From an uncultured Saprospiraceae bacterium (GTDB taxonomy: Bacteria > Bacteroidota > Bacteroidia > Chitinophagales > Saprospiraceae), in assembly GCA_938015595.1 (NCBI GenBank), contig CALLPI010000001.1:1-64000 (forward strand): DNA of 64,000 bases, written 5' to 3'. How positions within the stretch are numbered: the stretch's first letter is position 1; every line of letters starts with the position of its first letter. Shown here one piece after another: positions 24,361 to 32,936 of this stretch. The translations under genes were made by a program, and so were the position numbers. The notes below the pieces were generated by a model. That model was not told where the DNA came from. It did no database searches and was given only the letters and a program-made list of their open reading frames with translations.

Positions 24361-24398
24361 CGACAAATCATTCAACACCCTTGTCCTTGCTTTTTTCG

Positions 24399-26156
24399 AT
24401 GAAAACACTGCACAAACTGCTAGGCGTTATCCTAATATGGGCTTTGGGGGCGTGGAGCATAGCCGCTCAGAGTATAGACAGAGCCGCTGAAAAACTAGAA
24501 AAAACGCGCGCCGAAAACTGGCCGCCTCAGCGCGTACATGGCCGCAGTACGTTGGGGTATGCATTGCAGCAAGTGTTCAAACGCCACGCTGAATTTTGCG
24601 GATTCAAAGTCCAGGATAATGGGCGCGATTTTGTACCACCCGATGCCTCCCGGTTTCTAGGCCGCCGCACCTTGCGCACTCCTGTAGAAACCGCCGACAT
24701 CTCCGGCGGAGGGTTGCTTTATTATGTTTTTCATGAGCAAGAACGCTACATACCTTTTGCCTCCATACGTTTTACTCCTTCCAAGGTGCTCCGCCTGCCT
24801 GGCACTCCGCAGCCTTTTGCCATTCATCCTGACGAAAACTTCGACTCCTTCATCCTAACCAAAACTTGCAGTGGCTATCTCAAAGCCTCACTGGATGCTG
24901 GCATTGAGCCACCTTATGCTGCATTCAAAGCAGCCTTGGACACTGACAGCCGGCGCGAGTCCTCTGTTATGGCTATTTCGGGGTCTTTTGTGTCTCCGTT
25001 GCGCATTGCCCTGGATGCCAACGATCGGCGCACTGCCGAGGCCATGATGAAACTCTGGCAGTTCTACCGCGAAAACCCCGGCTACATTGGCAAGGCCTAC
25101 TACCTGCGTGAGTTCCAGGGCGTAATGATACGGCATGTGTCCACAGCGGAGGAGAACGCCCGCATCGAGTCTGAAGGTGCTTTCAACCTCGGCGGGCCAC
25201 TACCGGCGCGCCTCAAAGCCGCATTTGGTATAGGTGCTGGCAAGTCCAGCGTATTTTCTGGCACAGATTGGCAAACCATTCTATTTGCCGACTTTGACGC
25301 CGCCTACACCCGTGATCGAATCTTTGCCCCGCTACCTACACCGGCAGAGATTCGTCGGTACTTCGAGCAATTGCGCCCGCTGGCTTACCTCTCCGGCAGT
25401 AGCCCAATATTGGTGGAAGGTGTTCGTTTTCAGCATGTAGTGGAGCTGCCTGGCGTGCCGGAGGAGATGTCAGTGGCGTTTTGGGAGCTGGAAGCAGTGA
25501 GCCCAGGTTGTTTTGACGATACACCGGTGTTTGACACTGGATATTTCACGAAGGGTGAAAACTACGGCTGCCGATTTTCACTTTCCGGCCGGCCTGCACG
25601 CGTGCATTTCAATCCCTACAACAGCAATCGTGCCGGCGTGGCCAAAGTGAGCTACGTCATTCGTAGCCGCCAACCCATAGGCTCAGAGTACATCCGCATA
25701 CGGGTAGAAGCCGAGACGCCCACCAGCATACACCCGCTGGCGCGCATGGCGCGCGGGGAGTTCAATATCAGCAGGAAAGACAACCGCCACTTTGCACTGC
25801 AATGGACTTTTGAAGTGGAAATTGAAGACGCCGATAACCCTGTGGATTTTAGCGTGGCACCTTCTATAGATAAGATTACACTGCGCAATGCTGATGGCGA
25901 AGTACCAGTGTACCTGGCCAATTTGCAAGCCGACCCTGGCCGCAGGCGCTTTTTCATTACCCTAGAAACCCAAGAAACCTGGCCACTGGATCGCATAGAC
26001 GACGGGCAATCTCAATCCTACAATCTTTCTTTGGATATTCACCTCAAGAGCCTCCGGGCCGACACCTTTGCTGCAAGGCCTGTACAGGGCATCGTTCATC
26101 TGCCAGGGATTCGCCCGCCGGCACCTCCTGCGGCTGAAGGAGATGGTAGAAATTGA
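24399..26156 (+). CDS. large secreted protein of unknown function
   Basis: 585 residues from the ATG at 24399, which gives a clean signal peptide (LLGVILIWALGAWSIAAQS); a TTG at 24381 would add six residues. No domain recognised. The middle is mixed alpha/beta with a helical part (RTAEAMMKLWQFYREN), and the C-terminal third is beta-rich, perhaps immunoglobulin-like (VSYVIRSRQPIGSEYIRIRVEAE is cut across strands). It ends in a Pro/Ala tail (GIRPPAPPAAEGDG). It follows the DUF3108 gene by 38 bases and is closed by the terminator at 26233-26279, so it probably shares that operon. Confidence 0.75.
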   Translation: MKTLHKLLGVILIWALGAWSIAAQSIDRAAEKLEKTRAENWPPQRVHGRSTLGYALQQVFKRHAEFCGFKVQDNGRDFVPPDASRFLGRRTLRTPVETADISGGGLLYYVFHEQERYIPFASIRFTPSKVLRLPGTPQPFAIHPDENFDSFILTKTCSGYLKASLDAGIEPPYAAFKAALDTDSRRESSVMAISGSFVSPLRIALDANDRRTAEAMMKLWQFYRENPGYIGKAYYLREFQGVMIRHVSTAEENARIESEGAFNLGGPLPARLKAAFGIGAGKSSVFSGTDWQTILFADFDAAYTRDRIFAPLPTPAEIRRYFEQLRPLAYLSGSSPILVEGVRFQHVVELPGVPEEMSVAFWELEAVSPGCFDDTPVFDTGYFTKGENYGCRFSLSGRPARVHFNPYNSNRAGVAKVSYVIRSRQPIGSEYIRIRVEAETPTSIHPLARMARGEFNISRKDNRHFALQWTFEVEIEDADNPVDFSVAPSIDKITLRNADGEVPVYLANLQADPGRRRFFITLETQETWPLDRIDDGQSQSYNLSLDIHLKSLRADTFAARPVQGIVHLPGIRPPAPPAAEGDGRN

Positions 26157-26332: not shown

Positions 26333-27070
26333 TTAACCCTTGGTGCTCGTAGTGGCCAAGTTGAAAATTACCAGGCCAAAACCAATCTTGTTAACGGCGT
26401 CGCCAATGTTGTAAATGACGTCCATTGCTTCGATTTTCAGTACATTGCGCAGCAAGCCGTCTGTTTCGATTGCCATATAGCCGATGGGATAGATAGCCCA
26501 ACCTACCAACACGAACCACGCCAGCGTCTTGAATGCGCGCTGCAGGGCAGGCTCGTTGGACTTTTCGGCTAGCTTCTTGGCAGACCCCATCCAGATTTCA
26601 TACAGGACACCTACGTAGCCAATGGTGGAGATAGCCCCCCAGATGGCGCTGTTGCTGCGGTAGAGTGTTTCGCCCAGGTAACCAGCAACGAGCATCCACA
26701 GCGAATAGATAATGAGACGCCACATCAGCCCGACGTTAGCGCCGAAGGCGCGCAGGATGAGGTAAAACTCCACGCACATGAGCGGAACCGTCAGAATCCA
26801 GTCAATGTAACGGAACTCCGTTGGCGAAGAGCCATTCTCCGCCCAAAAACTGCGCATGTAAAAGTAGTGGACAGCAGCGATACCGGTGATCAAGCCCGAT
26901 ACCAGCATCGAATCTTTCCACTTGCCTTCTACCCGCGTCATTTGTACAAAGAAGAACACCGTGGCGGCCAGCATGGCCATGGAGCCAATGAAAAAGGTAA
27001 AGCCTACGTAATCACCAGGCTTGAGGGTAGCCAAGAAGATCGGCTCAATTAGGTTTGATAATGCACTCAT
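26333..27070 (-). CDS. proteorhodopsin-type light-driven proton pump
   Basis: 245 residues, seven helices. Helix C reads RYIDWILTVPLMCVEF: D90, T94 and E101 form the DTE proton-pump motif, and M98 at the tuning position predicts green absorption. H68 matches the proteorhodopsin histidine that pairs with the counter-ion. K228 in helix G (DAVNK) binds retinal. G145 in helix E (IWGAIST) aligns with bacteriorhodopsin W138 and xanthorhodopsin G156, so a carotenoid antenna could dock. No retinal-forming dioxygenase gene is in the window. It is transcribed alone; a terminator separates it from ppdK upstream. Confidence 0.97.
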   Translation of the reverse strand: MSALSNLIEPIFLATLKPGDYVGFTFFIGSMAMLAATVFFFVQMTRVEGKWKDSMLVSGLITGIAAVHYFYMRSFWAENGSSPTEFRYIDWILTVPLMCVEFYLILRAFGANVGLMWRLIIYSLWMLVAGYLGETLYRSNSAIWGAISTIGYVGVLYEIWMGSAKKLAEKSNEPALQRAFKTLAWFVLVGWAIYPIGYMAIETDGLLRNVLKIEAMDVIYNIGDAVNKIGFGLVIFNLATTSTKG

Positions 27071-27199: not shown

Positions 27200-27249
27200 A
27201 ATAAAAAGTGTTTTTCCGAGGCTTTTGCCTCAAAAAAACACTTTTTATT
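27200..27249 (-). terminator. terminator of ppdK
   Basis: AATAAAAAGTGTTTTT pairs with AAAAAAACACTTTTTATT, capped by a GAGGC-TTTT-GCCTC hairpin. It lies 20 bases beyond the ppdK stop and is nearly symmetric, so may work both ways. Confidence 0.8.
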
Positions 27250-30010: not shown

Positions 30011-30257
30011 AAGGGTTGATTTTCAAGTGAAAAGCCTTGTTGTATTGCAGGTAAAAAATAAGGAGTTTATGGCCTGAAGAGGAATGATTTAAGGCAGAGC
30101 AAGGGGTGATAGTTGTCAGTTTTATGGCTGGGAAGACTTTAAGACTGGGAGATTGGATGTATCCTATGCTGAAAAAAATCTCTTTTGATCTCTCTCCGAC
30201 AATACGCCTTCCTGTATCTTTAGGGGCTTGGGTGTTGAAAGGAAAAAAAATATAAGT

Positions 30258-32936
30258 ATGTTGCTTCGTTTTCGCCTGCTGGTATATGGGGTTCTAGTCG
30301 GGCTGTCTGGTGCCGGAGCTATGACTCTCGATTCGTTGGTAGCCATGCGCCACCGCGACTTGGCGCTGTTTTTCTTTGCCCAGAATTGCCTCGACAGCGC
30401 CGCGCAGCATCAAGCCAAGGCTTTGCACTACTTTAGGCAGCACGACCAACTACACGCTTGGCTGGATGCGCAAATCGCTGCTAGCAATCTATTATACCAA
30501 CACGGCTATACTAGCCTGGCACTACTCAAGCTCTCCCAGTCAGTAGGCGACAGCATCTGGAGAAAGCCCCAAGATTCTACCGAGTGGGACGCCTTGGGGC
30601 GTTGCTACTTAGCTCTGGCCGATGTGCAAAGTACTATGCTTCTGCGCGAAGCCCAAACGCTGATGGATTACGAAATGGCACGCGACATCCTTGTGAACCG
30701 CCTCCAGCGCTGCGATGCCTGGATAGCCTTGCACCTGTGGCGCCCGCTGGCGGCAGTGTACACCCGAAAAGGCAATTTTCCCGAAGCCAAGGCTGCACTC
30801 GATACCGCCTGTCAACTTGCCATGCAGGAGCGCAACGCTCACGTAGCCTCTGTTGCCCTGCGAGATTTGGCCAGGCTTCAAATGCAGCGTGGCTCACCTG
30901 CCGATGCCATAGAAACCTTGCGCAAGGCGCTGCTATTGCCCAGGCAATTCCCAGCCGAGCTAGCCGCTATCCACGCTGGTTTCCAGCAGGCCTGGGTCAT
31001 GCGCAACAACCCCGGCAGCGCCCTCATACATGGCCGGCTGGCTGCCCAGTTCTTTCGCACTTGCGGCGATTCTTGTAAAGCAGAGTTAGCCTACGTCCTG
31101 GCCGGCAATGCCATGCAACTATTAGAAAGGCGTAATTTCCGTGAAGCCCGCCAACTTTTGGAGGAAGCCCACCAGCTGTTGCGCGCCCAGTCCGCTGGCG
31201 ATTACCCGCCCCAGCTTGCCAGTATTTACGAAAACTTTGGTCAGCTTTATCTGGCCTGGAGCGAACCCGAAGAAGCCCTACGCTGGTATCAGCAGGCGCT
31301 CATGGCTGAAATGCCGGCTTTCCGCGAAAAAGACTACCGCCTACATCCCCCTGTGGCTCTGGTGCCAGGTACGCGCATTGCTGCCGATGCCCTGGCTGGT
31401 AAGGCAGAGGCTTTCTACATGCTTTATCAACGCAATCGTCGTGCGGAATTTCTGGAACTTGCCCTAGCCAGCTATGAGCGCAGTTTTTACGTCGAAACTT
31501 TGTTGCATCGGTTTTTCCCTAAAGATTTTTCTATTGCACTGCCGGAGCTCAGGCTGCGCCAGCGGCTACAACAAGCCCTGAATATTGCCCTAACCCCTGA
31601 TCCGATGTCACCGCTTTTTTCTGACTTTCAGTCTCGAGCATTTGCCTTGGCCGACGAACACAAGAAAATGCGCCTGTTGGAAGCCTGCGTGCACCATGGC
31701 GTGCTCAACCCTCTTCGCCTACCTTCTCTACTGCCCGACAGCAGCGGCTTCCGCATTGCCGAGTTGCAAGCGCTGATTCCTGATAAAGACCGCACATACA
31801 TCTCTTACAGCCTGGGCGCCGATAAGATCTTTGCTTTCATCATCACCAGAACCAGCACTCGCATTAGCTCTATACCACTGGATTTTCCTCTGGATGATTG
31901 GGCAACCCAATTGCGCAGGAGCCTGGAGTGGTATGGCCGGCCTGGTGCCGACTACCCTGCCTTAAACGCAGCGTATGCCCGCCTGGCCGTGCAGTTGTAC
32001 CTACGCCTGATAGCCCCGCTGGAATATACTGCTGCTATGGAGCCTCGGCTAACTATCATACCCGATGGCGTATTGTATGGCGTGCCTTTTGAGGCTTTAC
32101 TGACCGCCTCGCCTGCTGCCAGTGCTCCTGCTGACACCTGGCCATATTTGCTGCATCGCTACCGTATCAGTTACGGGTTGTCACTGGGGTTGCAAGTTGA
32201 TTTAATGAGGCAATCTCGCAGGGTGTACACCGGCTTGTTGGGGGTGGCACCACACTGGGACAACAGCACTGAACAAACAGAGGTATCGCTTTTTCGTACA
32301 GAGCAATGGCAACAAATGGAGCGCATTATCGGTGGCAAATGGTTGCTGCGCCAACAGGCAACCCCCACTAACTTCAAGTTGAAAGCTCCAAGGTTTGGTG
32401 TGTTGTATCTCGCCACCACAGCTCAAGCTAATCCCGTGGGTGGGCCGCCTTCCTTCCTGGCTTTGTCAGATGGGCAAGGGGGTATGGACTCCCTGAAGTG
32501 CAGCGACCTCTTTGCTATGAAACTCAAAGCAGATATAACTGTGCTGGAGCGCTGTACCTTTGCAAGCCTCGAAACAGCTATTCTGCTGCCGCTCAGCTTT
32601 TTCTATGCTGGCAGTGGCGCTGTGTTGCTGCCCTTTTGGCCAGAGCGCACCGATTCGTCAAGCACTATGCCTATGTATTTTCTTGAGAATGTAAAGGCTG
32701 GCCAAGGCAAACGCGATGCCCTTTGGAAAGCCAAAAAGCGCATGATACAAGCCAATGCTGACGTTGCTCACCCTGCCAACTGGGCGGCTTGGACACTCTG
32801 GGGCGACATGGGCGCGCGCGAGAAGAACCTTATGCCGGTGTCTGCCATTGTTTGGTGGTTGGCACTGGCACTGACATTAGCAGTTTTGGGCGGGCTGCTT
32901 TACCAAAGATTCATAAAGCCCGTGCCACAGTCCTGA
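30258..32936 (+). CDS. TPR protein with degenerate CHAT domain and C-terminal membrane helix
   Basis: 892 residues from ATG 30258 (a TTG at 30228 would add ten). A hydrophobic N-terminus (about 1-24) is followed by a long TPR-like helical region (about 40-430), then a CHAT caspase-like domain (about 490-830: YGVPFEALLT; VLYLATTAQ; VLERCTFAS) and a C-terminal helix (about 866-884). The CHAT catalytic His of the usual HLATHG motif is replaced here by Thr (YLATTA), while the Cys of the LSACETG motif is kept. Likely a scaffold or inactive protease. A box TATCTTTA (30214) may be its -7 element. Confidence 0.82.
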   Translation: MLLRFRLLVYGVLVGLSGAGAMTLDSLVAMRHRDLALFFFAQNCLDSAAQHQAKALHYFRQHDQLHAWLDAQIAASNLLYQHGYTSLALLKLSQSVGDSIWRKPQDSTEWDALGRCYLALADVQSTMLLREAQTLMDYEMARDILVNRLQRCDAWIALHLWRPLAAVYTRKGNFPEAKAALDTACQLAMQERNAHVASVALRDLARLQMQRGSPADAIETLRKALLLPRQFPAELAAIHAGFQQAWVMRNNPGSALIHGRLAAQFFRTCGDSCKAELAYVLAGNAMQLLERRNFREARQLLEEAHQLLRAQSAGDYPPQLASIYENFGQLYLAWSEPEEALRWYQQALMAEMPAFREKDYRLHPPVALVPGTRIAADALAGKAEAFYMLYQRNRRAEFLELALASYERSFYVETLLHRFFPKDFSIALPELRLRQRLQQALNIALTPDPMSPLFSDFQSRAFALADEHKKMRLLEACVHHGVLNPLRLPSLLPDSSGFRIAELQALIPDKDRTYISYSLGADKIFAFIITRTSTRISSIPLDFPLDDWATQLRRSLEWYGRPGADYPALNAAYARLAVQLYLRLIAPLEYTAAMEPRLTIIPDGVLYGVPFEALLTASPAASAPADTWPYLLHRYRISYGLSLGLQVDLMRQSRRVYTGLLGVAPHWDNSTEQTEVSLFRTEQWQQMERIIGGKWLLRQQATPTNFKLKAPRFGVLYLATTAQANPVGGPPSFLALSDGQGGMDSLKCSDLFAMKLKADITVLERCTFASLETAILLPLSFFYAGSGAVLLPFWPERTDSSSTMPMYFLENVKAGQGKRDALWKAKKRMIQANADVAHPANWAAWTLWGDMGAREKNLMPVSAIVWWLALALTLAVLGGLLYQRFIKPVPQS

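Follow-up and report, generated by a model that had tools for sequence, protein, structure and literature searches.

Can the rhodopsin that an uncultured Saprospiraceae bacterium encodes at positions 26333-27070 dock a carotenoid made by its own host, and from where would it draw its retinal? From a glycine in helix E, an initial annotation of the window (the whole stretch of 64,000 nucleotides analyzed here) had predicted a green-absorbing proton pump able to bind a zeaxanthin-type antenna. To judge from its sequence, the protein is by type an ordinary Bacteroidota light-driven proton pump, with a pocket already known from its zeaxanthin-bound relative NM-R1. Less expected is the gene content, in which the genome appears to encode a fitting carotenoid pathway yet no known retinal-making enzymes.

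The rhodopsin and its clade

The proteorhodopsin (opsin) gene, ORF P0001 on the minus strand, runs from an ATG start through 245 codons with no internal stops, and a genome search detected it as the sole rhodopsin in 3.77 Mb. The protein matches Pfam Bac_rhodopsin (PF01036, E 8.9e-46), and its AlphaFold model has a mean pLDDT of 90.4 and a pTM of 0.87. Top PDB sequence matches are 9jov/9jou (E 1.9e-81), and the best match to the predicted fold is 9jou, zeaxanthin-bound NM-R1 (TM 0.89/0.95, rmsd 1.6 A, 58% identity). The Pfam match, K228 and the predicted fold together indicate that the microbial rhodopsin fold and the retinal lysine are both present. Alignment places the functional residues as follows:

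26867..26869, minus strand: H68 codon (XR H62, GPR H75)
26801..26803, minus strand: D90 codon
26789..26791, minus strand: T94 codon, DTE motif
26777..26779, minus strand: M98 codon, spectral tuning position (GPR L105)
26768..26770, minus strand: E101 codon
26387..26389, minus strand: K228 codon, retinal-binding lysine, invariant in 91 of 91

From family knowledge, we take D90 to be the Schiff-base counterion and proton acceptor and E101 to be the proton donor. D224 is also present in the homologue alignment, and M98 is common to NM-R1 and 90 of the 91 aligned rows. The numbering of D90, T94, M98, E101, G145 and K228 given in the initial annotation is correct by this alignment, as is its report of a DTE proton-pump motif together with M98, and we infer green-light outward proton pumping for this rhodopsin.

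In the rhodopsin tree, the window protein groups with Bacteroidota proteorhodopsins, apart from the xanthorhodopsins, and the nearest named genomes with this rhodopsin are Saprospiraceae (83% identity over the best segment at locus L061). Membership in the xanthorhodopsin family (the XR/GR/Kin4B8 clade) was rejected on 28-32% identity and separate tree placement. Sequence and tree make it a proteorhodopsin of the Bacteroidota clade, from a Saprospiraceae-like bacterium.

The predicted carotenoid pocket and the host's carotenoid genes

The positions that would line a carotenoid pocket were again placed by alignment, with helix-F assignments following PMC12308411 and its Table 2:

26636..26638, minus strand: G145 codon, fenestration glycine (XR G156, Kin4B8 G153, GR G178, NM-R1 G142)
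26624..26626, minus strand: T149 codon (XR T160, Kin4B8 T157)
26477..26479, minus strand: Y198 codon (XR Y207, Kin4B8 Y204), conserved in carotenoid-binding rhodopsins
26459..26467, minus strand: E202-T203-D204 codons, near the pocket bottom (Kin4B8 S208/Y209, KR1 T/D), register plus or minus one residue

For G145, the reference alignment took in NM-R1, GPR, XR, GR, Kin4B8, psXR and TR. The window's IWGAIST stands in register with LWGFLST of XR, MWGVLST of Kin4B8 and IWGTVST of GR, and W138 of BR (in WWAIST) falls at G145 in the same register with no gap. Against GPR, MAFFT adds two residues, and a proline then faces G145; phmmer also opens a two-residue gap. A gapless helix register (AFIIGCLAWVYMIYELW) puts GPR F152 opposite the glycine. 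The equivalence first drawn with XR G156, BR W138 and GPR F152 holds in register, for GPR only if read gapless where the programs gap. These two gaps are what speaks for a helix E out of register, with the glycine off the opening and the pocket closed or filled by a bulky residue, a reading that we regard as scarcely credible: from WG-xx-ST onward, helix E is gapless against NM-R1, XR, GR and Kin4B8, the predicted fold matches zeaxanthin-bound NM-R1 at 1.6 A, and the check for a bulky residue found G145 facing Gly in all four proteins.

The glycine, although correctly observed, is an ordinary property of the whole clade. All 91 aligned homologues, which span Saprospiraceae, Flavobacteriaceae, Flammeovirgaceae and others, have it without exception, as does every row of alignment A2; it is therefore a clade trait and not, as had been supposed, a peculiarity of the window protein. 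Within the subtree covered by PMC13043013 (2026), every Bacteroidota proteorhodopsin is likewise reported to have it, and that paper, too, takes it to point to an antenna. Nor does the glycine alone prove carotenoid binding, because an NTQ-type rhodopsin of the set, L012, bears it as well. That protein (1429-2241; from G017, a member of the same family without the proteorhodopsin) has N-T-Q in place of D-T-E, is likely an anion pump and keeps the WG fenestration motif.

Published criteria for carotenoid binding put the glycine first and the helix-F tyrosine (XR Y207, Kin4B8 Y204) second, with polar residues at Kin4B8 208/209 marking binders of 3-hydroxy carotenoids (PMC12308411). The window protein has Y198, adjoined by M199 as in KR1, which has Met at Kin4B8 205, and the polar E202-T203-D204 near the 3-hydroxy-carotenoid end of the pocket, their register against Kin4B8 208/209 being uncertain by one residue. 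Carotenoid binding is likely. NM-R1, a Nonlabens (Bacteroidota) rhodopsin solved by cryo-EM, shares the DTE motif, tuning Met, fenestration Gly, helix-F Tyr and an almost identical helix F; it differs in having Gly146 in place of T149 and a helix F-G turn one residue shorter (GTPG vs IETDG in the window protein). Gly occupies the T149 position in 34 Flavobacteriaceae homologues as well. KR1 of Dokdonia eikasta, a 3-hydroxy xanthophyll binder compared by its published key residues (PMC12308411), is likewise a Bacteroidota proteorhodopsin, with Tyr and Met at Kin4B8 204/205 and Thr-Asp near 208/209. Kin4B8 (28% identity) and Salinibacter xanthorhodopsin (32%) share the fenestration Gly, the conserved Tyr and the Thr of T157/T160, but fall in a separate clade of the tree.

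What does not follow from the glycine is an antenna role: of the claimed antenna pocket, the opening with its Gly, Tyr and polar residues (these last with their one-residue doubt) stands, and energy transfer to retinal does not come with it. It is possible, though less likely than not, that a docked carotenoid gives the retinal no energy and instead speeds the photocycle or stabilizes the protein. The closest solved homologue is NM-R1, and PMC13093654 cites a paper by Fujiwara et al. (2025) that appears to describe that protein and whose title names photocycle-accelerating pigments. Binding and transfer are moreover separable, because salinixanthin binds Kin4B8 without energy transfer (PMC13093654). 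On the other side, KR1, another flavobacterial proteorhodopsin (Y, M, T, D), binds 3-hydroxy carotenoids with energy transfer, as does Kin4B8 (PMC12308411), and T149 corresponds to the Thr of Kin4B8 and XR, whereas NM-R1 has Gly.

Could the host supply such a pigment? Homologues of CrtB, CrtI, CrtD and CruF lie in one cluster of its genome (L032), a CrtY-type cyclase is encoded at L054, and a CrtZ profile search gave a candidate at L183 9586-10098. This evidence consists of homologues and covers CrtB, CrtI, CrtD, CruF, CrtY and CrtZ. The six genes together predict a 3-hydroxylated carotenoid of the saproxanthin type, and from a set without a ketolase one would expect a monocyclic 3-hydroxylated product, saproxanthin for example. 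To judge by its genes, the host would make a fitting ring carotenoid. The proposed zeaxanthin-type pigment is right as to the genes for a 3-hydroxylated beta-ring, but the full set indicates monocyclic saproxanthin, not zeaxanthin. Five FA_hydroxylase matches in the host genome were rejected as CrtZ, the CrtZ motif being missing, and a CrtYcd-type lycopene cyclase found no match there. Elsewhere, L068 (1649-8203) holds a rhodopsin-crtI-crtB-crtD-(cruF-crtZ fusion)-crtYcd-like cluster with blh on the other strand, the fusion giving a single protein for both hydration and ring hydroxylation.

Retinal supply

The host assembly comprises 27 contigs at 100% estimated completeness, with the rhodopsin inside a contig of 302,764 bases. 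A profile search of it found no match to Blh (PF15461), a relative's Blh protein as query gave none at E up to 10, and no RPE65-type oxygenase was matched in it. As positive controls, the same search recovered Blh in 7 of 13 genomes, mostly beside the rhodopsin, and RPE65 in three. Known retinal-making enzymes, whether brp/blh or RPE65-type, are absent from the host assembly, a point that the initial annotation overlooked and a further difference from NM-R1. Because the genome has neither Blh nor an RPE65-type oxygenase, retinal is either scavenged from outside or formed by some other, not yet recognized enzyme; an opsin without it may be dark in the cell.

Among relatives, blh flanks the rhodopsin in 71 of 80 homologous loci from genome contigs. 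The other nine divide into four with Blh elsewhere in the genome, four in which a Blh search found none assembly-wide (L069, L071, L074, L108) and L122, which lies outside the whole-assembly count; the few relatives that lack blh are mostly Saprospiraceae, and for these MAG assemblies no completeness is stated. The Saprospiraceae rhodopsins in assemblies with no Blh match lie at L069 6001-6753, L071 6001-6750 and L074 6001-6747. L061 retains the usual order crtY-blh-rho; in L069 and G022, crtY adjoins rho and blh is missing. In G022 (L004 1441-3543), the rhodopsin directly neighbors the lycopene cyclase gene, and that genome encodes an RPE65-type oxygenase and no Blh. By parsimony, lack of blh requires at least four changes across the rhodopsin tree, although branches with good support by themselves force no more than one. 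A shared Blh substitute near the blh-less L069, L071 and L074 was rejected: these loci have nothing in common with the window beyond the rhodopsin itself and an ABC-type ATPase similarity of a general kind. For the window-L061 pair, dN/dS is 0.11 (NG86) or 0.18 (YN00), about three times that of other pairs, and a slight relaxation of selection on the window opsin is possible. The blh-less pair L071/L074, close relatives, gives 0.03-0.04, indicating strong purifying selection; by this measure, opsins in blh-less genomes remain constrained.

How, then, is the missing blh to be read? Bacteria without it that nonetheless have a working or scavenging rhodopsin have been reported (PMC7734400; PMC11322631), the former mentioning Bacteroidetes among them with no data given, so the present absence is a further case of a known puzzle. 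There is a substantial chance, though below even, that blh was lost and no retinal is made, leaving an opsin that is non-functional or facultative and active only with neighbors' retinal. Besides the lack of Blh and RPE65 in so complete a genome, Rhodoluna lacicola depends on added retinal (PMC7734400), and proteoopsin is stable without it (PMC11322631). Yet every retinal and pump residue is intact under purifying selection, the constraint on L071/L074 counts against plain decay (not against scavenging), and Aurantimicrobium minutum, which lacks blh, still contains retinal (PMC7734400). That organism also has a rhodopsin gene and lacks diox1 too; it differs in being an actinobacterium whose functional rhodopsin is xanthorhodopsin-like. 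A single gene can go missing among 27 contigs, but loss of Blh in an assembly gap is very unlikely given the estimated completeness, the long contig in which no blh adjoins the rhodopsin where most relatives have it, and its absence also from the assemblies of L069, L071, L074 and G022. We think it unlikely that some Saprospiraceae repeatedly lost blh and keep a working carotenoid-pocket proteorhodopsin for which a novel carotenoid-cleaving enzyme of their own makes retinal.

Proposed mechanism and gene neighborhood

Taken whole, we consider it probable that the window encodes a green proton pump with a side pocket that docks a host carotenoid and with an external or unrecognized retinal source. 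From the sequence, helix register, predicted fold, clade, carotenoid genes and absence of retinal genes, we infer pumping, color, carotenoid binding, energy transfer and retinal supply along these lines. With retinal on K228, D90 would take up the proton and E101 donate one, giving outward pumping in green light. G145, Y198 and the polar residues at the helix-F foot would open the protein on one side, giving the host carotenoid, predicted to be saproxanthin-type, a place where its 3-hydroxylated ring may dock beside the retinal ring. The docked carotenoid may transfer energy to retinal, as happens in KR1 and Kin4B8, and may, additionally or instead, change the photocycle, in line with the title of the paper on NM-R1 (via PMC13093654). 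Retinal would come from outside or from a host enzyme yet to be recognized.

At gene level, this locus offers a case of a bacterium that has a proteorhodopsin with a carotenoid pocket and can apparently produce a 3-hydroxylated ring carotenoid itself. Retinal supply is what most deserves follow-up, and the blh-less Bacteroidota set (the host genome, L069, L071 and L074) provides material for deciding between scavenging and a novel retinal synthase.

Two features flank the gene:

27203..27246, minus strand: terminator-like hairpin and T tail following the pyruvate phosphate dikinase gene upstream, by consensus match only
24381-26156, opposite strand to the rhodopsin: 591-aa protein with a signal-like start, adjoining the rhodopsin, no Pfam match

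The hairpin suggests separate transcription of the rhodopsin. An alternative retinal enzyme beside the rhodopsin was rejected, given these neighbors. Farther along the window, 30228-32936 encodes a 902-aa protein with TPR and CHAT domains.
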